Positions 44,829 through 58,435 of a DNA stretch of 64,000 bases are shown here, piece by piece. The stretch spans positions 3,125,501 through 3,189,500 of the forward strand of contig NZ_JACMTR010000002.1 of NCBI RefSeq assembly GCF_014267175.1, written 5' to 3'. The DNA is from Pseudonocardia sp. C8 (GTDB lineage: Bacteria; Actinomycetota; Actinomycetes; Mycobacteriales; Pseudonocardiaceae). Each line of letters opens with the position of its first letter. Position 1 is the first letter of the stretch. Both the position numbers and the translations under genes were made by a program. The notes beneath the pieces are model-generated. The model ran no database searches and was not told the origin of the DNA. It saw only the letters and a list, made by a program, of their open reading frames with translations.

Positions 44829-44856
44829 GCCCCGACCGTAGCTCGTGACTCCGGGA

Positions 44857-47800
44857 TCACCGGGGGTCGAGGTGGCCGAACCGGTGCCGGGTCCGGCTGA
44901 CCGCCTGCTCGCGCAGCACGGTCAGCAGCTCCCGCCGGCCGTCGACGAGGACGGCCGCGTCCAGGATGGACGCCCCGGCCGCGGCGGCCGCCGCCCGCAG
45001 TCCGCCGGGGACCGTGCCGAGCGCGCGGATCCGCACCGCGGGTTCCGGGTCCAGGACCGGGCCGCCGTGGACCCCGCCGGGCAGCGGGCCGTCCGGGACG
45101 CCGGGGCCGTGCAGCCGTACTGGGACCCCGGCCGTCGCCGCGGCGAGCAGCACCCGCAGGACGTCCACCCGGGTCGTGCCCTCACCCGCCCACAGCACGA
45201 GCGAGGGCAGCGGCCGGTAGCGGAACACGTCGGACTCGGCGGCGAGCCCGGTCGGGTCGTGCTCGACCCCGAACTCCGTGCGCCAGGCGGCCGCGTCGGA
45301 GGCGGCCGCGCGGCGCAGCCGCTCCCGGTCGCCGGTGTCCAGGTCGGACGCGGCGGCGAGGACCCGGTCGGCGGCCCGGCCGGAGGTCCCCTCCCCGGCG
45401 GGTGCGGCCGGGTCGTCGTGCCAGGTCCCGAACTGGGCGACGTAGTTCGGCCCGCCCGGTTTGGCGCCGGGGCCGAGCACCGAGCCCTTCCAGCCCCCGA
45501 ACGACTGCCGCTGCACGATCGCGCCCGTGATGTGCCGGTTGACGTAGGCGTTGCCGACCTCGACGTGCTCCAGCCAGTGCCCGATCTCGTCCTCGTCGAG
45601 CGAGTGGATGCCGCCGGTGAGGCCGAACCCGGTTCCGTTCTGCCAGCGGATCGCCTCGTCGAGGTTCCGGGCGGCCATCAGGCCGAGCACCGGGCCGAAG
45701 CACTCGGTGCGGTGGAACCAGCTGCCCGGCGCCACCCAGGCCCGCACCCCCGGGCTCCACATCCGCTCCCCGAGCCGCCGCGGCCGCACCAGCCAGCGCT
45801 CGCCCGGCTCGAGGGTGGTCAACGCCCGGTGCAGCTTCGCCGGGGGTTCGTCGATGAGCGGGCCCATCGTCGTCGACAGGTCCGATCCGGGCCCGACCCG
45901 CAGGGTCCGGACGGCGTCGACCAGCTGCCGGCGCAGCCGCCGCCCGGTCGCCGACCCGGTCGCCGCCGGCCCGACCAGGATCCCCAGCGAGGCCGCCGAG
46001 CACTTCTGTCCGGCGTGCCCGAACGCGGACCGGACGAGGTCGGCGACGGCCAGGTCGGGATCCGCCGCCGGGGTGATGACCAGCGCGTTCTTGCCGCTGG
46101 TCTCCGCGAGCAGGTTCAGCTCGGGCCGCCAGGACCGGAACAGCGCCGCCGTGTCGGACGCCCCGGTGAGCACCACCCGGTCGACGCCGGGGTGGGTGAC
46201 CAGCCGCCGCCCGGCGTCGCCCTCGTCGGTGGGCAGCAGCTGCAGCGCGTCGGCCGGGATCCCGCCGCGGTGCAGCGCGGTGACCCCGGCCTCGGCGCAC
46301 GCCCGCACCTGCGGGGACGGCTTGAGCAGCACGGACGCGCCGGCCGCGAGCGCGGCGAGGCAGCCGCCGAGCGGGATCGCGATCGGGAAGTTCCACGGCG
46401 GCGTCACGGCCACGACCCGGTCCGGGGTGAACGGGGCACCGGCCAGCTCGGCGGCGCGTTCGGCGTAGTACGCGGCGAAGTCGACGGCCTCGGAGATCTC
46501 CGGGTCGGCTTCGGCGACCGTCTTGCCGCCCTCCCCGATCATCACCGCGAGCAGGGTCCCCCGTGCGGCCGCGAGGGCCCGGGCGGCCCGGCGGAGCGTG
46601 GCCGCCCGCTCGGCGGCCGGCAGGTCCCGCCAGCCGGACCCGGCCGCCCGGTGGACGGCGGCGTCGACGTCGCGCGGGTCGGTGACCACCGGGATGCGCG
46701 GGACGGCGATCGTGCCGCCGGCCGCCGACGCTGCCCGGCGGGCCCACGCCCGGTTCGCCGGCAGCGCCGGGTCGGTGTCGGGCTCGTTGCGGAACCCCGG
46801 CTCGCCCGGCACGAGCGGGCCGTCCGCGCCGACCGGCGCGTCCACCGTGCGGTCCTGGGTGCGGCGCGGGGTGTCGGCGACGGCGTCCCGGTCCCGGACC
46901 GATGTCCGGAACCGGTCCAGGTAGGACGACGGTCCGGTGTCCGGTGTGAACAGCGTGTACAGGTAGCCCTCCGGCGACGCGTTCTCCTCCAGCCGCCGGA
47001 CCAGGTAGGACACCGCGGTGTCGAAGTCGCCGCGGTGCACGACCGGGGTGTAGAGCACGAGCTTCGACCCCGGTCCGGACGCCGGCAGGTCCCCGGCGAC
47101 CGCGCGGGCGAACTCCGGTGCCATGCCGTGCAGCATCTCCAGGTCGAGCTGGGCGCGGGCGTCCCGGGCCTCGGCCATCTCCAGGGCGAGTGCCACGTGG
47201 TGCAGGTGGTGCGAGGCGACGCCCAGCCGCAGCGCGTGGCCGCCGTCCGCCCGGGCGCCCCCGGCGACCCGGTTTCCGCCGATCGCCCGGTCGAGGAGCC
47301 GGACGTAGTTGGCGTCGACCTCGGCCTTCGTCGGGTACGGGGCCTGCGGCCAGCCGTGGAGCTCGGCGTCCACCTTCTCCATGGCCAGGTTGGCGCCCTT
47401 GACCAGCCGCACCTTGATCGGTGCGCCGCCGTTCCGGCGGGCGGCGAACTCGCCGAGCTCGTCCAGCGCGGCGACCGAGTCCGGCAGGTAGGCCTGCAGC
47501 GCGATCCCGGCGGGCAGGTCCCGGAACTCCGGCCGGGACAGCAGCGTGGTGAACACCGCGACCGTCAGGTCGAGATCCTTGTACTCCTCCATGTCGAGGT
47601 TCACGAACACGCCCGCGGTGCGGGCCGCGCGGTAGAGCCGCAGCAGCCGGGTGACCAGCCGGTTCCGGCTGCCCTCCAGGTCCCACGGCACGAGCTGCGA
47701 CGCCACCGCCGACACCTTCACCGACACGTGGTCGACCCCCGGCCGGCGCAGCAGCGCGATCGTCCGTTCGAGCCTGCGGTCGGCCTCCCCCTCGCCCAGC

Positions 47801-48303
47801 ACCGCCTCGCCGAGCAGGTTGAGGTTGAGCCGGTGCCCGGCGGCCTCGGCGGCCCGGAGGCGGCGGGCGAGCGGGCGGCCGCCCGCGTCGACGATCAGGT
47901 GACCGACCAGGCGGCGCAGCCGGGCCCGCGCGGCCGGGACCACGACGTGCGGCAGTGCCGGGGCGAGCCGCGCGCCGGCCCGCAGCAGCAGCCGGTCGGC
48001 CCCGCCGACGAACGCCGGCAGCGCCGGGGCGCCGTCCGCGCGCACGCGGTGGCGGCCCGCGAGCCGGGCCAGCTCCCGGGCGGCCACCCGGTTGTCGGCC
48101 GGCCGGGCGACCCGGTCGACGAACCACAGCGTGAAGTCGACGCCACCGGGGTCGTGCATCAGCGCCGCCAGCCGGGCGGTCGGGTCCGACGCGCGGGCCG
48201 AGGCGATCGCCGTGTGGGCGGTCCAGCGGCGCACGCGCTCGACGGCCCGCTCGACGAGGGCGTCGTCGAGGGCCGGAGCGGGATGGGTGGGATGCACGCT
48301 CAC
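44857..48303 (-). CDS. putA: Bifunctional proline dehydrogenase / 1-pyrroline-5-carboxylate dehydrogenase
   Basis: 1148-residue protein oxidising proline to glutamate. The N-terminal half is the FAD-dependent proline dehydrogenase barrel (LNLNLLGEAVLGEGEADRRL, VSVKVSAVASQLVPWD, FVNLDMEEYKDLDLTV, KVRLVKGANLAMEKVD, ENASPEGYLYTLF). The C-terminal half is an aldehyde dehydrogenase: VTPPWNFPIAIPLGGCLAAL, catalytic Glu in NLLAETSGKNALV and Cys in GHAGQKCSAASLG. A tail of about 170 residues follows, as in long PutA types. No N-terminal ribbon-helix-helix, so it should not autoregulate by DNA binding. The GTG at 48303 is preferred; ATG 48345 would add 14 non-conserved residues. Confidence 0.92.
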   Translation of the reverse strand: MSVHPTHPAPALDDALVERAVERVRRWTAHTAIASARASDPTARLAALMHDPGGVDFTLWFVDRVARPADNRVAARELARLAGRHRVRADGAPALPAFVGGADRLLLRAGARLAPALPHVVVPAARARLRRLVGHLIVDAGGRPLARRLRAAEAAGHRLNLNLLGEAVLGEGEADRRLERTIALLRRPGVDHVSVKVSAVASQLVPWDLEGSRNRLVTRLLRLYRAARTAGVFVNLDMEEYKDLDLTVAVFTTLLSRPEFRDLPAGIALQAYLPDSVAALDELGEFAARRNGGAPIKVRLVKGANLAMEKVDAELHGWPQAPYPTKAEVDANYVRLLDRAIGGNRVAGGARADGGHALRLGVASHHLHHVALALEMAEARDARAQLDLEMLHGMAPEFARAVAGDLPASGPGSKLVLYTPVVHRGDFDTAVSYLVRRLEENASPEGYLYTLFTPDTGPSSYLDRFRTSVRDRDAVADTPRRTQDRTVDAPVGADGPLVPGEPGFRNEPDTDPALPANRAWARRAASAAGGTIAVPRIPVVTDPRDVDAAVHRAAGSGWRDLPAAERAATLRRAARALAAARGTLLAVMIGEGGKTVAEADPEISEAVDFAAYYAERAAELAGAPFTPDRVVAVTPPWNFPIAIPLGGCLAALAAGASVLLKPSPQVRACAEAGVTALHRGGIPADALQLLPTDEGDAGRRLVTHPGVDRVVLTGASDTAALFRSWRPELNLLAETSGKNALVITPAADPDLAVADLVRSAFGHAGQKCSAASLGILVGPAATGSATGRRLRRQLVDAVRTLRVGPGSDLSTTMGPLIDEPPAKLHRALTTLEPGERWLVRPRRLGERMWSPGVRAWVAPGSWFHRTECFGPVLGLMAARNLDEAIRWQNGTGFGLTGGIHSLDEDEIGHWLEHVEVGNAYVNRHITGAIVQRQSFGGWKGSVLGPGAKPGGPNYVAQFGTWHDDPAAPAGEGTSGRAADRVLAAASDLDTGDRERLRRAAASDAAAWRTEFGVEHDPTGLAAESDVFRYRPLPSLVLWAGEGTTRVDVLRVLLAAATAGVPVRLHGPGVPDGPLPGGVHGGPVLDPEPAVRIRALGTVPGGLRAAAAAAGASILDAAVLVDGRRELLTVLREQAVSRTRHRFGHLDPR

Positions 48304-48407
48304 CCCGCACAGTCTGGCCCGCCGTCCGGTTCGCGGCACGTCCACGGCGTCGCCCTCCCGGGCGTTGCGCCTGGACCCGGCCCCCGGGCACGAGGATCAT
48401 CGGCGCA

Positions 48408-48923
48408 GTGAGCAGCCCACCGCCGTACCCGGGGAACCCGCAGGACCCGCACGCGCAAGGAGGTCACCCGGAGCAGCCCACCCACCGGTACGGCTACCCC
48501 GACCGGCCGCCCGCCCACGACCCGGGCGTCGCCGCCTACGGCGGGCCGCCACCCCGGCCGCGGAACGGCGTCGGGACCACCGCCCTGGTGCTCGGCATCC
48601 TGGGCATCCTCACCTGCTGGCTGCTGATCGGCGCGCTGTTCGGGCTGATCGCGGTCGCGCTCGGCATCATCGGCATCGCGCGGGTGTCGAAGGGCATTGC
48701 CACCAACCGGGGCGTGGCGATCAGCGGGCTGGTCCTCGGCGTGCTGAGCGTGCTCGCGACGGTCGCGCTCGTGGTGTTCGCCTGGGGGGTGTTCAGCAGC
48801 GTCGGGGGCCTCGATTTCATCGACTGCGTGCAGCGCTCGGGCGGGGACCAGGCCGCGGTCCAGCAGTGCCAGACCGGGTTCCAGGAGCGGCTGCAGCAGG
48901 AGAGCGAGCAGCTCGGCGGCTGA
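48408..48923 (+). CDS. DUF4190-type membrane protein
   Basis: 171 residues: a Pro/Gly/Tyr-rich cytoplasmic N-terminus of about 50 residues, two helices (TTALVLGILGILTCWLLIGA and GLIAVALGIIGIARVSKG) joined by the DUF4190 pattern, a third helix GLVLGVLSVLATVALVVFAW, and a short tail with two Cys in an acidic Gln-rich segment. Function unknown; such proteins often join cell-envelope or septal complexes. GTG start, divergent from putA by 104 bp. Confidence 0.82.
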   Translation: MSSPPPYPGNPQDPHAQGGHPEQPTHRYGYPDRPPAHDPGVAAYGGPPPRPRNGVGTTALVLGILGILTCWLLIGALFGLIAVALGIIGIARVSKGIATNRGVAISGLVLGVLSVLATVALVVFAWGVFSSVGGLDFIDCVQRSGGDQAAVQQCQTGFQERLQQESEQLGG

Positions 48924-51005: not shown

Positions 51006-53708
51006 TCACCCGCCGCCGAGCCGCCCGGCCAGCTCCGCCCGGGACCGGACGCCGACCTTGGCGTAGGTCCTGGTCAGGTGGTACTGCACGGTCTTGACCG
51101 ACACCTGCAGCTCCGCGGCGATCTCCCGGTTGGTCCGGCCGCGGACCACCAGGTCGGCCACGGCCCGCTCCTGCGGGGTCAGCTCGCGCACCGCCCGGTC
51201 GCCGCGGGCGCCCGCGTGCACGCCGCCGGCCTTGAGCTCCCGGTCGCAGCGGCGGACGTACACCGTGGCCCCGAGCCCGGCGAACATCTCCCGGGCCGCG
51301 GACAGCACCGCATCCGCGTCGCGGCGCTTCCCGGCCCGGCGCAGGGTCTGCCCGAACGCGAACCGCACCCGGGCCCGGTCGTAGCGGTGCGGCAGCCGGT
51401 CGGCGACCCGCAGCGCCTGCTCGAACGCCGCCCGGGCGGCGTCGTGCTCGCCCCGGGCGCCGAGCAGCCGGCCCCGCGCGTAGCCGAGCCGGGCGATCGT
51501 GGACCGGTGGCCGCGGTCGGCGGCCCGCCGCTCGTGCGGGACGAGGAACTCCTCCGCCGCGTCCAGCTCACCGGTCATGACCAGCGCGTTCGCGAACACG
51601 TCCTGCCACGGCCACCAGCCGGGCTCTGCGGTGGCGCCCCCGGCGGTCCGCAACGGCTCCAGCGCGCGCAGCACCGCCGGGTAGTCGGCCCGGGCCTCGG
51701 CCAAGTGGGCCCGGGCGAGCATCGCCGGGACCCGCGCGATCTCGTACTCGGAGGCGCCCGCCTCGGCGGCGAGCGCCGCCCGTTCGGCGCGTTCCGGCTC
51801 GTCCCGCAGCCCGTGCACCTGCGCGATCGTCCATTCCAGCAGCGGCGCCGCCAGCGCGATCCCGGTCCGCGCCGCCAGCTCCCGGCCCTGCTCGGCGGCC
51901 CGCAGCGCGCCGTCCCAGTCCCCGGTGTGGAAGCGGGTCCGGGCGAGCCAGCCCAGCGCCCACAGCGAGATCCGGGACGAGCCGCCGAGCACGGTCGTCG
52001 GGACGGCGCTCTCCAGGTCGGTGCGGGCCCGGTCGAGGTCGTCCTGCACGAAGTGCAGCCAGCCGCGGCCCATCGTGACCCGCTGGGCCTGCGCCCCGTG
52101 CCACACCCGTTCGGACGCGGCGGCGTAGGCCGCCCGGGCCTGCTCCGGGTGCCCGGCGGCGGACAGCCCGAGCCCCCGGATCGCCGCAGCCTCGACGGCG
52201 GGCGGAGTGTCCGGGCCCGCCAGCGCGATCGTCCGGTCCGCCCAGGTCACGAGCTCGTCCCCGCGGCCACGGGCCAGCGCGTGCAGGACGCAGCGCTGCG
52301 CGACGAGCGCGGCCGCGGGCCGGTCGGTCTCCCCGGCCCCGGCCTGCTCCCACGCCCGGCCGAGCCGGGCGGACGCCTCGCCGGCCTGCCCGAGCACCAC
52401 GGCCAGGTACCCGAGGACGGCGCCGCGCAGCGGGGTCTCCCGGGTGGCCTCGACCACGGGGACGAGCGCCTCCGCGGCCCGGCACTCCCCCGCACCGATC
52501 ATCGCGTCCACGGCCCGCACGAGGCGTTCCTCGCGGCGCGCCCGGTCGGCGGTGAGCCGGGACGCCTCGGCGAGCAGCGCGGCCACGGTGCTCCAGGCCC
52601 CTGCGGCGGCCTCCTCGGCGGCGCGGGCCTCGAGCTCGTCGGCGAGCACGTCGTCGCGGCCGGCGACCGCACCGGCCAGCAGGGCCAACCGCCGGGTCGG
52701 GTCGTCGACGACCTCCCCAGCGCGGCGGCGCAGCCCGGCGACGACGTCCGGGCCCAGCTCGTCGAGCACCGCTGCCCGCACCATGGGATCCGCCGGTGCC
52801 GCCGCGGGACCCCACCGGCTGCCGGCCGGGGCGACCAGCCCGGCCCGGGCGGCCTCGGCGAGCGCCGCGAGCACGCCGGCCGGGTCGCCGCCGGTGACCG
52901 CGGCGATCTCGTCCGGCTCGCCGGGCCGGTCCAGGACGGCGACGACGTCGAGCAGCGCCCGCGCCGGTTCCGACAGCCCGGCCCGGCGGTGCCTCACCGA
53001 CGCCGCCACCTCCGGCGGGGCGGGCAGCCGCGCGTGCGGGTCCGGCCAGGCGTCGGCGGGCAGCGTGGCGAGCAGGGCCAGCACGTGCCGCGGCCGGCCC
53101 GCGGTGTGCCGGGCGAGGCGCTCGGCGGCCGCCGCGCCGAGCGGGACACCGCGGGCGGCGGCCAGCGCGGCGACGGCACGGGCGTCGAGCGGGCGCAGCA
53201 CGATCTCGGTCCCGGCGACGGCGCGCAGCAGGTCGGCCGTGCCGGGCTCACCGTCGGCGGGGCGGGCGGCCAGCAGCACCGTCAGCGCCCGCTCCGGATG
53301 GTGGTGGACCAGCGTGGACAGCACCTGCAGCGACCACGGGTCGGCGGCGTGCGCGTCGTCGACGACGAGCAGCGTGCGGGCGTCCCGGCTGCAGGCGGCG
53401 GCGACGGCGCCGGCCGCGGCGAACGCGTCGCCGCCCGGGACCGCGGCACCCGGCACGAGCTGGGCGAGCACCCCGCCGCTCCGGTGCGCCTCCCACCGGG
53501 CGCCGCGGGCGGACCGCACCGGGCCGTCGTGCCCGGCGGCGACGGCGGCGACCAGCGCGGACACCCCGATCCCGCGCGGCCCGGTGACCAGCGCCGACCG
53601 GGTACCGGTGCCGGCCAGCAGCCCGCGCAGCCGCGCGGCCTCGTCCGCCCGCCCGGCGAGCACGGCCGGCGCCCACCCGGTGGGGTCCACGGCGTCGGGG
53701 TCACCCAC
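51006..53708 (-). CDS. LAL-type LuxR regulator, BenR-like
   Basis: 900-residue ATP-dependent regulator. N-terminal AAA/STAND ATPase (Walker A SALVTGPRGIGVSALVAAV, Walker B TLLVVDDAHAADPWSLQVLS), a long helical TPR-like middle section, and a C-terminal LuxR HTH (LTPQERAVADLVVRGRTNRE, IAAELQVSVKTVQYHLTRTY). It follows the benABC-D genes on the same strand by 29 bp. In Corynebacterium and Rhodococcus a LAL/LuxR protein (BenR) activates the ben operon, so the same role is inferred. GTG 53708 is the in-frame start; the Walker A lysine position reads Gly-Val, so nucleotide binding may be altered. Confidence 0.84.
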   Translation of the reverse strand: MGDPDAVDPTGWAPAVLAGRADEAARLRGLLAGTGTRSALVTGPRGIGVSALVAAVAAGHDGPVRSARGARWEAHRSGGVLAQLVPGAAVPGGDAFAAAGAVAAACSRDARTLLVVDDAHAADPWSLQVLSTLVHHHPERALTVLLAARPADGEPGTADLLRAVAGTEIVLRPLDARAVAALAAARGVPLGAAAAERLARHTAGRPRHVLALLATLPADAWPDPHARLPAPPEVAASVRHRRAGLSEPARALLDVVAVLDRPGEPDEIAAVTGGDPAGVLAALAEAARAGLVAPAGSRWGPAAAPADPMVRAAVLDELGPDVVAGLRRRAGEVVDDPTRRLALLAGAVAGRDDVLADELEARAAEEAAAGAWSTVAALLAEASRLTADRARREERLVRAVDAMIGAGECRAAEALVPVVEATRETPLRGAVLGYLAVVLGQAGEASARLGRAWEQAGAGETDRPAAALVAQRCVLHALARGRGDELVTWADRTIALAGPDTPPAVEAAAIRGLGLSAAGHPEQARAAYAAASERVWHGAQAQRVTMGRGWLHFVQDDLDRARTDLESAVPTTVLGGSSRISLWALGWLARTRFHTGDWDGALRAAEQGRELAARTGIALAAPLLEWTIAQVHGLRDEPERAERAALAAEAGASEYEIARVPAMLARAHLAEARADYPAVLRALEPLRTAGGATAEPGWWPWQDVFANALVMTGELDAAEEFLVPHERRAADRGHRSTIARLGYARGRLLGARGEHDAARAAFEQALRVADRLPHRYDRARVRFAFGQTLRRAGKRRDADAVLSAAREMFAGLGATVYVRRCDRELKAGGVHAGARGDRAVRELTPQERAVADLVVRGRTNREIAAELQVSVKTVQYHLTRTYAKVGVRSRAELAGRLGGG

Positions 53709-53737
53709 ATCCCGGACCGTACCCGGCCCGCGCCGGG

Positions 53738-56545
53738 TCACCCCTGGTCGCCACCGGCGACCGGCAGCACCGTCCCGGTGATGTAGGACGCCTCCGGGGA
53801 GGCCAGGAACGTGATCGCCGCGGCCTGTTCGTCGAGCGTGCCGTACCGCTTGAGCAGCGACGACTCGGTGGTCTGCTCGACGATCGTGGCGTACCACTCC
53901 CGCTCCTGCTCCGACTCCGGGGCCGGTCCGCGCGGGATCCGCCGGGCCGGCGCGTCGGTGCCGCCGGGTGCGGTGGCCGCCACCCGCACGCCGTGCGGGG
54001 CCAGCTCCATCGCCAGCGCCGAGGTGATCGCGTTGACCCCGCCCTTGGCGGCCGCGTACGGGACCCGGTTGAGCCCCCGGGTGGCCACCGAGGACACGTT
54101 GAGGATCGTCCCGGACCCGCGCTCCACCATGTGCGGTGCCACGGCACGGCAGCACCACAGGGTGGGCATGAGCGACCGGTCGATCTCGGCGCGGATCTGC
54201 TCCGGCGGGTAGTGCTGGAAGGGCTTGGCCCAGATCGTGCCGCCCACGGTGTGGATCGCGACGTCGACCCGGCCGTGCCGGGCCAGCGCGGCCGCCACGA
54301 CGGCCTCCGCGCCGTCCCAGTGCTCCAGGTCGGCGGTCACCGCCTCCGCGCCGAGCTCGTCGGCGACCGTCTTCACCTGGTCGGACCGGTCGGCCAGGAC
54401 GAGCGCGCCGCCCTCGGCCCCGATCCGCCGCGCGACGGCCTCGCCGATCCCCTGGGCCGCGCCGGTGACCAGGACGACCAGGCCGTCGAACCGGCCCGGG
54501 CTCACGAACCGGGGCCGGCGCGCCGCGGCCGCCTCGTGCATCGCCCGGCGCATGGTCGCCTTGGAGTTCTCCGCGTGCGAGCTGATCAGCTCCCGGGCCC
54601 GGGTGCGGTCGCCGGCCGCGATCGCGTCGACGATGTCGATGTGGTCCTGCGCGCAGTCCGGGTGGCACCACACCGCCGAGCGCAGCGTCTCCGACATCGC
54701 GCCCTTCACCCCGAGCGCCTGGTAGGCGCGCAGCAGGTGGGAGTTGCCGGTGCGGGTGAACAGGTAGTCGTGGAACGCGGCGTTGGTCTCGGTGTAGGCC
54801 TCGGCGTCGGTGAACCGCTGGGCCTCCCGGTCCACGTAGGGCACGGTGGCCTCGGCGAGCAGCCGGTACCCGGCGACCTCCCGGGACGAGAGCCGGCCGA
54901 GCACCAGCTCCAGGGCGCCGAGCTCCAGCGCGTGCCGCGCGTCGAAGATGGCGTCCGAGGAGTGGATGTCCGGGTGCTCCTCGCCGATCTCGTACCCGTC
55001 CTCGGAGACCGTCGCGCCGGGCGGGGCCACCAGCGGGTCGAGGTCGTGCGGGGGCAGCACCGGCATCGACTGGACCGCGCGGGCCCCCTCGGGGGCGACG
55101 AGCAGCCCGGTGTCGGTGTCCAGCGGCGTCGCGGGGGCGTCGGTGAACGGCTCCCAGACCCGCTGCCCCAGCACCGCCCGCTCGGGCTCCGGGTCCCCGG
55201 CGGGCCCGGCCGGGGCGGGGGCGTGCAGCGGCTCCGGGTCGCCGAACCGGGTCAGCGGCAGGCCGAGCACGCTGCGCCCCTCCCGGCCGCCGAGGGTGAG
55301 CAGGTCGCCCGGGGTGGGCGCGGCCGCCGGCACGGGGCCGGCCGCGGCCACGCCCGCGGAGACCGCGCCGGCCGAGGGGGCGCCGGTGGAGGCCGCGCCC
55401 GCGGAGACCGTGCCCGCCGAGGCGGTGCCCGCCGGGCCGCCGCTCCCGATGCCCGCGCTCGCCGGCGCTACTCCGGCCGGAGCAGGCACCTCGGCCGCGG
55501 CTGCAGGGGACGCCGCGGAGCGCTCCGGCACCGCGGCGAGGGCGAACTTCTCGTAGTAGAACCCGGCCGGGGCCAGCCCCCGTTCCCGTAGGTCGGTGCG
55601 GACGGCCTCGACCATCGCCGGCGGGCCGCACAGGTAGACCGCGCCGGTGCCGTCGTGCAGGTGCTCCGGCCCGAACAGCGCGGTCACGTACCCCTGGTTC
55701 GGCGCCGACGTGCCCGGGTCGGCGACGCAGTGGTCCCAGGTCAGCCCGGTCCCGGCGGCGAGCTCGCGGACGGTGTCCAGCTCGACGAGGTCGTCGTCGG
55801 TGGTGACGCCGTAGACCAGGTGCACCGGCCGGGTGCTGCGCTGGTCGCGCAGGGTCCGCAGGATGGACAGGATCGGTGCCAGGCCGGTGCCGCCGGCGAG
55901 CAGCAGCAGCGGGTTCTGCGACTCGCGCAGGAAGAAGCTGCCGTGCGGGCCGGTGAACGACAGCGGGTCGCCGACCGCGGCCCGGTGCTCCAGCCACTCC
56001 GACATCACCCCGCCCGGGGCGAGCTTGACCAGGAAGGTCAGTGCCTCGTCGTCCGGGGCCGAGGAGAACGAGTAGGAGCGGTGTGCCTCGGTGCCGGGGA
56101 CGGCGATGTTGACGTACTGCCCGGGCAGGAACGCCAGCTTCTCCCGGTCGTCGATCTCGACGGTGAGCCGCACCGTGGTCGGCGAGAGCCGGTCCAGGCC
56201 GGTGACCCGGCCGTGGTGGGTGGCCGCCGCGGTCTTCGCGACCGCCGACGTCGTGGGGATCTGCACGACCAGGTCGCTGCGCGGCCGGGCCTGGCAGGCC
56301 AGCAGGTAGCCCTCGGCGGCCTCGTCGGCGGACAGGGCGTCGTCGATGTAGTCCCCGCCGTCGTAGTCGCCGGACTCGCAGAACGCCTTGCAGGTGCCGC
56401 AGGCCCCGTCCGAGCAGTCGACCGGGATGTTGATCCGGGACCGGTAGGACGCGTCGGCGACCGACTGGTCCTCCCGGCAGGTGACGAACCGGGTGACGCC
56501 GTCCTCGAAGCTCAGTGCCACCCGGTGCGTGGTCGTCGCCGCCAT
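53738..56545 (-). CDS. BenC-FCD-BenD fusion: benzoate dioxygenase reductase / FCD-like domain / cis-diol dehydrogenase
   Basis: One uninterrupted 935-residue frame with four modules. Residues 1-95: plant-type [2Fe-2S] ferredoxin, Cys44, 49, 52 and 84. 105-335: ferredoxin reductase, FAD motif HRSYSFSSAP, NAD motif AGGTGLAPILSIL and YLCGPPAMVEAV; together BenC. 340-525: Ala/Gly/Pro-rich linker. 530-665: helical FCD-type domain (NAAFHDYLFTRTGN, DHIDIVDAIAAGD, SSHAEN; His592, 635 and 657 fit the metal site), without any DNA-binding HTH. 685-935: SDR dehydrogenase BenD (TGAAQGIG, Ser818/819, Tyr830, Lys834). It passes electrons to BenAB and rearomatises the cis-diol to catechol. ATG with GGAGG upstream, ten bases past the benB stop. 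Confidence 0.92.
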   Translation of the reverse strand: MAATTTHRVALSFEDGVTRFVTCREDQSVADASYRSRINIPVDCSDGACGTCKAFCESGDYDGGDYIDDALSADEAAEGYLLACQARPRSDLVVQIPTTSAVAKTAAATHHGRVTGLDRLSPTTVRLTVEIDDREKLAFLPGQYVNIAVPGTEAHRSYSFSSAPDDEALTFLVKLAPGGVMSEWLEHRAAVGDPLSFTGPHGSFFLRESQNPLLLLAGGTGLAPILSILRTLRDQRSTRPVHLVYGVTTDDDLVELDTVRELAAGTGLTWDHCVADPGTSAPNQGYVTALFGPEHLHDGTGAVYLCGPPAMVEAVRTDLRERGLAPAGFYYEKFALAAVPERSAASPAAAAEVPAPAGVAPASAGIGSGGPAGTASAGTVSAGAASTGAPSAGAVSAGVAAAGPVPAAAPTPGDLLTLGGREGRSVLGLPLTRFGDPEPLHAPAPAGPAGDPEPERAVLGQRVWEPFTDAPATPLDTDTGLLVAPEGARAVQSMPVLPPHDLDPLVAPPGATVSEDGYEIGEEHPDIHSSDAIFDARHALELGALELVLGRLSSREVAGYRLLAEATVPYVDREAQRFTDAEAYTETNAAFHDYLFTRTGNSHLLRAYQALGVKGAMSETLRSAVWCHPDCAQDHIDIVDAIAAGDRTRARELISSHAENSKATMRRAMHEAAAARRPRFVSPGRFDGLVVLVTGAAQGIGEAVARRIGAEGGALVLADRSDQVKTVADELGAEAVTADLEHWDGAEAVVAAALARHGRVDVAIHTVGGTIWAKPFQHYPPEQIRAEIDRSLMPTLWCCRAVAPHMVERGSGTILNVSSVATRGLNRVPYAAAKGGVNAITSALAMELAPHGVRVAATAPGGTDAPARRIPRGPAPESEQEREWYATIVEQTTESSLLKRYGTLDEQAAAITFLASPEASYITGTVLPVAGGDQG
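55313..55522. repeat. Low-complexity Ala/Gly/Ser/Pro linker with short in-frame repeats
   Basis: Codes for residues about 342-411 of the BenC-FCD-BenD protein. Short units of the type S-A-G-(T/A)-(V/A) recur (SAGTV, SAGAA, SAGAV, SAGVA), at DNA level as roughly 15-bp units containing GCGGAGACCG or GCCGAGG. Such tracts can change length by slippage while staying in frame. Confidence 0.7.
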
Positions 56546-56555
56546 GGCGACCTCC

Positions 56556-57074
56556 TCAGAAGTGGTAGACGTCGACCACGTGGTGGATGTAGTCGTTCTT
56601 CAGCACCACGGTCTTGCGGCGGATCAGGGGCGACTCCCCCGAGAAGTCGATCGTGTAGAACGACGTGCCGTAGTACGGGTCCACGGTCTTGTACCGGAAG
56701 TACATCGTGTGCCAGTTGAACCGGACGTCGACGAGGTCGCCGCGGCGCTCGATGACCTCGACGTTGGAGATGTTGTGGCTGGTCCGCGGCTCGGGAAGGG
56801 AGGTCGCCGAGGACCGCTCGGTGCGGATCCGGAAGACCCGGTCCTCCAGGCCGCCCTTGTTCCCGTAGTAGATCAGCGAGATCTCGCGCTGCGGGTCCTC
56901 GGTGAGCCGGTCGGTGTCGTCCCACGCCGGCATCCAGTAGACGACGTCGTCGGCGTAGCACTCCAGCCACTGCTCGAACTCGCGGTCGTCGAGGTACCGC
57001 GCCTCCCGGTAGAGGAACTGCTCGATCATGTTCTGGGTGATCAGGGTGGACGAGCGCTGCTCGGTGGTGGTCAT
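56556..57074 (-). CDS. benB: Benzoate 1,2-dioxygenase small (beta) subunit
   Basis: 172-residue structural beta subunit of the ring-hydroxylating dioxygenase. Seen: MIEQFLYREARYLDDREFEQ, WLECYADDVVYWMPAWDDTD, EISLIYYGNKGGLEDRVFRI, RTSHNISNVEV and IRRKTVVLKNDYIHHVVDVY, which match BenB/XylY. The ATG overlaps the benA stop (ATGA), giving coupled, equimolar synthesis with the alpha subunit. Between benA and the reductase fusion. Confidence 0.95.
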   Translation of the reverse strand: MTTTEQRSSTLITQNMIEQFLYREARYLDDREFEQWLECYADDVVYWMPAWDDTDRLTEDPQREISLIYYGNKGGLEDRVFRIRTERSSATSLPEPRTSHNISNVEVIERRGDLVDVRFNWHTMYFRYKTVDPYYGTSFYTIDFSGESPLIRRKTVVLKNDYIHHVVDVYHF

Positions 57075-58435
57075 GCCCGCGCCTCCTCGGACTCGATGGC
57101 GGCGCGCATGACGTCGCGCCAGTAGCCGTGCTGCACGGGGTAGAGCCCCTCGTCCTCGTTCTTGACCCCGGCCGAGACGACCCCGTGCATGTCCAGTGCC
57201 TTCGCGACCTCGTCCGGGCCGGTCAGCCAGTGCTGCGCACCGCGGGACATGTCGTTCCACGGGGCCGCGGTGGCCTCGAAGGTGAGCTGGCAGGCCCGGA
57301 ACTCCTCCAGGTCGTCCGGGGTGGCCATGCCGGAGGCGTTGAAGAAGTCCTCGTACTGCCGGATCCGGTGCGCTCGGGCGGCGTCGCTCTCCCCCCTCGG
57401 CGCGATGCAGTGGATCGTCACCTCGGTCTTGTTCGGCGCGATCGGCCGGAAGTGCCGGATCTGGGTGGAGAACTGGTCCATCAGGTAGACGTTCGGGTAG
57501 AGGCACAGGTTGCGGGAGCCCTTGACCATGAACTCGCCCTTGGCCTCGCCGAACCGCTCCTTCAGCGTCTCCATCTCGCTCCACAGCGGACGGTCCTGCG
57601 GGTTCGCCGCCCAGGTCCACAGGCAGAGGTGGCCGTTCGGGTAGGACCAGTAGCCGCCGCCGGACTTGCCCCAGCCGCCCGCGTCGAGCGCCTTGGTGTC
57701 GTTCTTCGACTCGCCGGACCCGCGGCGCGAGGTGGTCGCGGCGTAGTTCCAGTGCAGCGCGGAGACGTGGTAGCCGTCGGCGCCGTTCTCGGCCTGCACC
57801 TTCCAGTTGCCGTCGTAGGTGTAGGTCGACGAGCCGCGCAGCACCTCCAGCCCCTCCGGGGACTGGTCGACCAGCATGTCGATGATCGTGGTGGTGTCGC
57901 CGAGGTGCTCGGACAGCGGCAGCACGTCGGCGTTGAGCGAGCCGAACAGGAACCCGCGGTACTCGTCGAACCGGGCGACCCGGGTCAGGTCGTGCGAGCC
58001 GTCCTTGCCGAAGCTCTCCGGGTAGCCGGCGCCCTCGGGGTCCTTGACCTTGAGGAGCGTGCCGTCGTTGCGGAAGGTCCAGCCGTGGAACGGGCAGGTG
58101 AGCGTGAGCCGGTTGTCGGTCTTGCGGCGGCACAGCATCGACCCGCGGTGCGCGCAGGCGTTGATCAGGCAGTGCAGCTCCCCGTGCCGGTCCCGGGTGA
58201 TCATCACGGGCTGCCGGCCGATGTGGGTGGTCACGTAGTCGCCGGGCTCCGGGAGCTGGCTGGTGTGCGCGAGGTAGACCCAGTTGCCCTCGAAGATGTG
58301 CCGCATCTCGAGTTCGAAGATCTCCTCGTCGGTGAAGATCCGGCGGTTGGCGCGGTAGACGCCCGCCTCCGGGTCCTCGACGACGGCCGAGTCGAGCACG
58401 CGGCGGACGTGGTCGGAGTGGGCGACGGCGGTCAT
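57071..58435 (-). CDS. benA: Benzoate 1,2-dioxygenase large (alpha) subunit
   Basis: 454-residue catalytic subunit adding O2 to benzoate to give the 1,2-cis-diol carboxylate. Rieske cluster ligands Cys94, His96, Cys114, His117 (NACAHRGSMLC and LTCPFHGWTF). Mononuclear iron site in ENGADGYHVSALHW (His223, His228, bridging Asp220). C-terminal RQYEDFFNASGMATPDDLEE and QHGYWRDVMRAAI are typical of BenA. ATG 58435 with GGAGGACGCCG upstream. First gene of benA-benB-benCD, divergent from the cat genes across 206 bp. Confidence 0.96.
   Translation of the reverse strand: MTAVAHSDHVRRVLDSAVVEDPEAGVYRANRRIFTDEEIFELEMRHIFEGNWVYLAHTSQLPEPGDYVTTHIGRQPVMITRDRHGELHCLINACAHRGSMLCRRKTDNRLTLTCPFHGWTFRNDGTLLKVKDPEGAGYPESFGKDGSHDLTRVARFDEYRGFLFGSLNADVLPLSEHLGDTTTIIDMLVDQSPEGLEVLRGSSTYTYDGNWKVQAENGADGYHVSALHWNYAATTSRRGSGESKNDTKALDAGGWGKSGGGYWSYPNGHLCLWTWAANPQDRPLWSEMETLKERFGEAKGEFMVKGSRNLCLYPNVYLMDQFSTQIRHFRPIAPNKTEVTIHCIAPRGESDAARAHRIRQYEDFFNASGMATPDDLEEFRACQLTFEATAAPWNDMSRGAQHWLTGPDEVAKALDMHGVVSAGVKNEDEGLYPVQHGYWRDVMRAAIESEEARA

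Follow-up and report, generated by a model that had tools for sequence, protein, structure and literature searches.

A BenC-FCD-BenD fusion in the benzoate pathway of Pseudonocardia sp. C8, with a repeated and putatively docking motif in its linker

The window analysed here, 64,000 nucleotides of Pseudonocardia sp. C8 (NCBI RefSeq assembly GCF_014267175.1, contig NZ_JACMTR010000002.1, positions 3,125,501 to 3,189,500 of the forward strand), carries on its minus strand a gene, benCD, which is the third in the order benA-benB-benCD and which joins a benzoate dioxygenase reductase (BenC), a linker, an FCD domain and a cis-diol dehydrogenase (BenD) on one chain. The frame of 935 codons starts with ATG and has no internal stops; the plus strand across the same positions contains a stop. 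The first-pass annotation had proposed this single-frame fusion without naming its strand, and Pfam and NCBIfam matches together with homologues bear it out. The parts of the gene are as follows:

53738..56545, minus strand: benCD, a single frame BenC-linker-FCD-BenD of 935 aa (open reading frame list, Pfam, NCBIfam, homology search)
55538..56533, minus strand: BenC part, residues 5-336, with 2Fe-2S ferredoxin, FAD and NAD domains (Pfam, NCBIfam; nearest structure 1krh)
55010..55537, minus strand: linker, residues 337-512, Ala/Pro-rich and predicted disordered (AF2 pLDDT, pairwise identity)
55226..55282, minus strand: linker motif copy 1, residues 422-440, partly decayed, GLP replacing GQ (motif profile)
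55130..55186, minus strand: linker motif copy 2, residues 454-472 (motif profile)
55031..55087, minus strand: linker motif copy 3, residues 487-505, partly decayed, QSM replacing AGQ (motif profile)
54512..54997, minus strand: FCD domain, residues 517-678, with the pocket residues R537, N588, H592, H635 and H657, and with W626 (Pfam, alignments, model, fold search)
53741..54496, minus strand: BenD part, residues 684-935, a cis-diol dehydrogenase of the short-chain dehydrogenase/reductase (SDR) type (Pfam, NCBIfam)

All Pfam matches lie above their cut-offs: Fer2 at residues 14-89, FAD_binding_6 at 114-204, NAD_binding_1 at 215-316, FCD at 533-659 and adh_short at 690-867. The NCBIfam families for BenC (NF040810, residues 7-335, 471.9 bits vs. 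a curated cut-off of 430) and BenD (NF040811, residues 685-935, 404.3 bits vs. 380) are also matched. The solved structure closest to the BenC part is 1krh, a benzoate dioxygenase reductase, and matches to the reductase and SDR parts take up the fold list for the whole chain modelled with AlphaFold2 (AF2). In alignment A1 (94 homologous sequences) the BenC part conserves C44, C49, C52 and C84 of the 2Fe-2S cluster, R156-S157-Y158-S159, G218-G219-T220-G221 and C306-G307-P308-P309; in the SDR part G695, G699, G701, S818/S819 and K834 are invariant and Y830 is present in 90% or more. We take these positions to be the known catalytic motifs; both enzymes look intact by this alignment, as had been claimed. 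Mean pairwise identity is 0.74-0.81 in the domains (0.74 and 0.81 in the enzymes) and 0.33 in the linker.

A length-limited homology search gave 974 matches in total, and the six Pfam domains are common to all of the best 120, query included, whose domains were checked; the FCD, FAD_binding_6, Fer2 and adh_short domains named in the first-pass annotation are among those found. Rates were taken from BenC surveys of the class and of the order. The class survey, with the BenC family as query, gave matches above the curated cut-off in 13 of 394 genomes: 11 three-part fusions, one BenC-FCD with separate BenD and one BenC alone. In the order survey a BenC-like match was present in 47 of 397 genomes and lay in a frame of at least 833 aa in 39 of the 47 (31 three-part by domain, one BenC-BenD without FCD, seven by length alone); the other eight comprise two BenC-FCD, one BenC-BenD, three BenC alone without the linker motif and two BenC alone with one motif. 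Given that 39 of 47 matches lie in such long frames, 31 of them domain-confirmed, BenC-FCD-BenD is the usual form of BenC in the order and not a rarity. The ranking first suggested, in which BenC-FCD would be more widespread and its fusion to BenD less common, looks reversed: BenC-FCD with separate BenD is the rarer form (1 vs. 11 of 13 in the class, 2 vs. 31 of 47 in the order). We also fetched 79 loci with peptides of the fusion itself, for which reason the 48 BenC-FCD-BenD fusions among them are not a frequency; the others are three BenC-BenD without FCD, five BenC-FCD from Corynebacterium whose BenD is separate, and 23 in which BenC and BenD are separate and the FCD is absent (6 actinobacterial, 17 proteobacterial). 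L187, with a linker identical to that of L045, and L185, the counterpart of L054, were not counted as new cases. In neither of the two genomes of the window's genus in the order sample (G550 and G600) was a BenC match found at E 1e-90, and the ben cluster is therefore patchy within the genus.

Several loci stand beside this picture. In L054, L061 and L185 BenC is intact but the adjacent BenD is split into pieces over two frames, through either a genuine break or a sequencing slip. The order also has BenC-like reductases of 241-299 bits, below the BenC cut-off, in frames of 854-932 aa (L113, L114, L115, L116, L118) whose C-terminal portion measures about 500 aa; the Pfam search gave weak FAD matches in L113 and nothing past the reductase in L118. 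A distant, motif-less BenC-FCD of 538 aa (L188 / L102, genome G002), whose BenD is separate, branches away from Corynebacterium as well as from the fused group.

The stretch between BenC and FCD had been described as a low-complexity region of 190 residues. It is indeed predicted to be disordered (about residues 337-512; AF2 block pLDDT mostly 31-51), but it also holds three copies of a conserved motif that the description missed. Across 171 linkers the length between BenC and FCD is 74-242 residues (median 160). The motif spans 19 columns, with a consensus of about [GA]-R-x-[IV]-A-G-Q-x-[VLM]-[FLW]-P-x-x-[DE]-[LI]-x-P-L and a core of roughly R-x-[IV]-A-G-Q-x-[VLM]-[FLW]-P; 119 representative linkers contain 326 sites, and shuffled linkers contain 0.1 in total. 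Three copies are found in 93 of these linkers and four in one, with a spacing of about 32 residues (both medians 32). When one half of the set was used for training and the other for testing, three copies were recovered in 45/60 and 41/59 linkers, vs. 0.0 and 0.05 in shuffles. At a profile score of 20, the profile, which was trained on the BenC family, gave 114 matches in BenC frames and one elsewhere among 5012 frames scanned. At the DNA level, clusters of two or three strict matches lie at the ben loci of six of eight whole genomes, in which isolated strict matches away from these loci occur at about the rate of the reversed control; in the genome of the window the strict pattern occurs at one place, vs. 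three for the reversed control, and not at the ben locus. A short conserved motif inside a predicted disordered region is the pattern of a docking motif, or short linear motif.

The motif persists where other parts of the chain are missing. Fusions without the FCD (L042, L045, L046, L165) keep it; compact BenC-BenD fusions (P0126, P0141, P0177), with linkers of 54-70 aa, have exactly one copy each; and in a lineage with separate BenD (P0121-P0125, L149, L186) BenC ends in one copy. The start of BenD overlaps the stop of BenC in L149, and as this locus (L111 on the tree) lies inside the fused group, the split looks secondary. No copy was found in 24 split BenC-FCD proteins with linkers of 12-48 aa, nor in the BenC-only actinobacteria examined outside the re-split lineage. 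Motifs also occur in 15 BenC-FCD and 18 BenC-only rows; these include contig-end or frame-broken pieces and, P0121-P0125 excepted, were not counted as architectures. Such retention suggests that selection acts on the motif in its own right and not through the FCD or the BenD fusion.

To ask which protein the motif might bind, we compared 52 fused with 26 unfused loci (L054 and L061, with BenD in pieces, omitted from the latter) for clade-specific positions. These amount to 10/123 in BenB, 9/292 in BenA, 4/141 in BenC and 0/120 in BenD (BenA+BenB vs. BenC+BenD, p=0.047; BenB vs. the rest, p=0.004; both uncorrected). Of the 10 BenB residues, among which are K73, M124, P133, Y135 and T155, 8-10 are kept in held-out motif-bearing loci (L149, L186, L189, L190) and 0-2 in held-out motif-less ones (L181, L182, L183, L184, L188); the clade-specific residues are also present in the benB of the window. 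The FCD is ruled out as the partner, as FCD-less proteins keep the motif. Our best guess is that the motif binds the benzoate dioxygenase BenAB, and BenB above all.

We tentatively propose, at somewhat less than even confidence, that benCD is a bifunctional enzyme docked by its linker motif on BenAB, with the FCD as a carboxylate-binding tuner. One NADH is spent when benzoate is dioxygenated and one is regained when the cis-diol is oxidised; the BenAB oxygenase is an alpha3beta3 assembly. The BenC part would pass electrons from NADH to BenAB and the BenD part would convert the cis-diol to catechol and give NADH back; the motif, as a putative short docking motif, would hold the chain, most likely on the oxygenase, where the two NADH half-cycles would be brought together and the diol could be handed over within the assembly. 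The FCD may bind a metal and, via the metal, a carboxylate (benzoate, the cis-diol and muconate are candidates), and may thereby tune activity or assembly. Coupling of NADH use and regeneration on one chain, as the first-pass annotation had it, is plausible by pathway logic. The three copies could even meet the three alpha3beta3 protomers; the stronger version of the proposal, a redox-neutral metabolon in which the chain is tethered with one motif per protomer, NADH is recycled and the metal-carboxylate FCD acts as a throttle, we consider rather unlikely.

Several observations weigh against our proposal. Two copies are found in 19 of the 119 linkers, one in five and none in one, so that three copies are not obligatory, and the GQ core is gone from copies 1 and 3 of the window protein itself. 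AF2 confidence in the linker is too low to support a fold for the motif. Several lineages do without the FCD. Within the fused clade no lineage that has lost the motif was found. The unfused, motif-less loci L051 and L052 (BenC alone) share 6/9 of the BenA residues, which makes the BenA signature weak; and because the fused set is one clade, clade-specific residues can mark descent alone.

The likeliest of the alternatives concerns the FCD (PF07729, 56.7 bits vs. a gathering score of 24.3), which might be a structural dimerisation or spacer module whose metal is structural and which senses nothing. FCDs commonly dimerise, and the DNA-binding part is absent from the chain: the winged helix-turn-helix (PF00392) has no match in the 935 aa at E 0.001, which agrees with the first-pass description and sets the protein apart from GntR/FadR regulators. 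A single joining of the domain to BenC seems to have been followed by three or more losses that left both enzymes in place; since several lineages have shed the domain while keeping everything else, it is probably accessory. The FCD tree, whose root is not fixed, covered 58 of the 208 sequences (18 of the 168 fused ones), and the BenC tree, made with a quick search, covered 64 of 93; the Rhodococcus forms are in neither. In the FCD tree BenC-type FCDs form their own branch relative to 34 other FCDs (support 100/98; labelled GntR, with the helix-turn-helix checked in L094 only), and the BenC-FCDs lie outside the fused ones (fused branch 87/96). Against a merely structural role, the metal ligands N588, H592, H635 and H657 are invariant, together with the pocket arginine, in 174/174 BenC-type FCDs and again in 24/24 further ones, and the FCD is as conserved as the enzymes (0.77 vs. 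0.74 and 0.81). Nearly every BenC-type FCD has an aromatic residue at the W626 position, compared with 0/34 of the others, with the loop alignment uncertain. The model of the domain is confident (pLDDT 91.7), with FCD structures at the top of both fold lists, and N588 with H592/H635/H657 corresponds to the Asn and three His of the nickel site reported in Ps5454 (3c7j). By these alignments the pocket is intact and of the metal type, with a putative metal site. The metabolite-sensing role first suggested, though still putative, draws support from the invariant metal site and pocket arginine; the purely structural alternative is a real but doubtful one.

It is also possible, though we hold it to be on the unlikely side, that the motif binds something other than BenAB, such as BenD in trans, BenC, a neighbouring chain or a cell component, and serves self-assembly or localisation. 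BenAB is no more than a putative partner; re-split BenCs keep the motif and could recruit the separate BenD; and AF2 places short strand pairs, at low confidence, near all three copies. On the other hand, single-chain proteins need no recruitment of BenD, BenD and BenC show few or none of the clade-specific positions, and the FCD is excluded as noted above. That the repeats are a mere relic of linker growth by duplication, with no binding role, seems improbable: the spacing of about 32 residues would fit an old tandem repeat, the flanks of the motif vary freely and the copies of the window are partly decayed, but the core is conserved across genera where the remaining linker is not, and one copy survives in linkers shortened to 54-70 aa and in re-split BenCs. 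Finally, an assembly artefact or chance open frame is refuted, even though the high-GC DNA here yields many long spurious frames, by the recurrence of this domain set in each of the 120 homologues listed and in many independent genomes.

BenA and BenB matches are present in 79/79 of the fetched loci. The neighbouring features in the window are:

56551..56556, minus strand: ribosome-binding site AGGAGG, 5 bases ahead of the benCD ATG and overlapping the end of benB (coordinates derived from the upstream sequence)
56556..57074, minus strand: benB, dioxygenase beta subunit of 172 aa, directly upstream of benCD (end coordinate derived from the 172-aa frame)
57071..58435, minus strand: benA, dioxygenase alpha subunit with Rieske and Ring_hydroxyl_A domains (domain matches)
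51006..53567, minus strand: LuxR-type regulator with TPR and a weak AAA match, downstream of benCD, its frame extending further upstream

A catechol 1,2-dioxygenase and a LysR regulator lie nearby on the opposite strand, and the locus is therefore a ben-cat cluster. The nearest named homologues of benCD are from Pseudonocardia. A separately started BenD at the conserved Met669 was judged unlikely, with a Shine-Dalgarno-like core in 0/47 loci (other internal sites had no exhaustive test). Very long open frames at 51078-53786 and 44845-48411, both on the plus strand, lie opposite real genes as a high-GC effect, so that frame length by itself is a poor guide. Elsewhere the same genome has a second BenC-like reductase (L081), 40% identical over residues 11-339.

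The fusion is not new, since a 2019 report on Gordonia alkanivorans YC-RL2 (PMC6362181) already describes a fusion of benC, benD and an FCD domain; this is the same fusion as benCD, and the accessible part of that report contains no survey, metal site or linker motif. In two other papers a Rhodococcus ruber benC is named reductase/dehydrogenase (PMC6498646) and a Rhodococcus benC is called an FCD domain-containing protein (PMC11858498). The BenC-FCD proteins of Rhodococcus and Corynebacterium share the FCD type and the Asn and three His site of benCD, but differ from it in their short, motif-less linker (24 proteins) and separate BenD. Compared with the 338-residue BenC of 1krh, benCD adds the motif-bearing linker, the FCD and BenD on the same chain; BenD, normally a separate gene, is here the C-terminal part of the BenC chain with its SDR residues present; and the DNA-binding part of regulators with GntR/FadR-type FCDs (Ps5454, VanR-type) is absent. 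A text search of the open-access literature found no paper on a benzoate 'dioxygenase reductase' with FCD and linker, and no description of the linker motif or its retention pattern was found there, a motif not being searchable by shape.

In conclusion, the three-part chain is common to many soil actinobacteria, and its flexible linker usually carries three motif copies. If our proposal is true, these organisms would have a naturally evolved multi-enzyme assembly in a pathway used for pollutant and lignin breakdown, in which the sensor domain of a transcription factor has been inserted into a metabolic enzyme, and a testable rule would follow, namely that a short repeated motif keeps reductase and dehydrogenase at the oxygenase. 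Lineages without the FCD, or with BenD re-split and the motif kept, are natural experiments on that rule, and the motif could act as a tag to co-localise redox enzymes.
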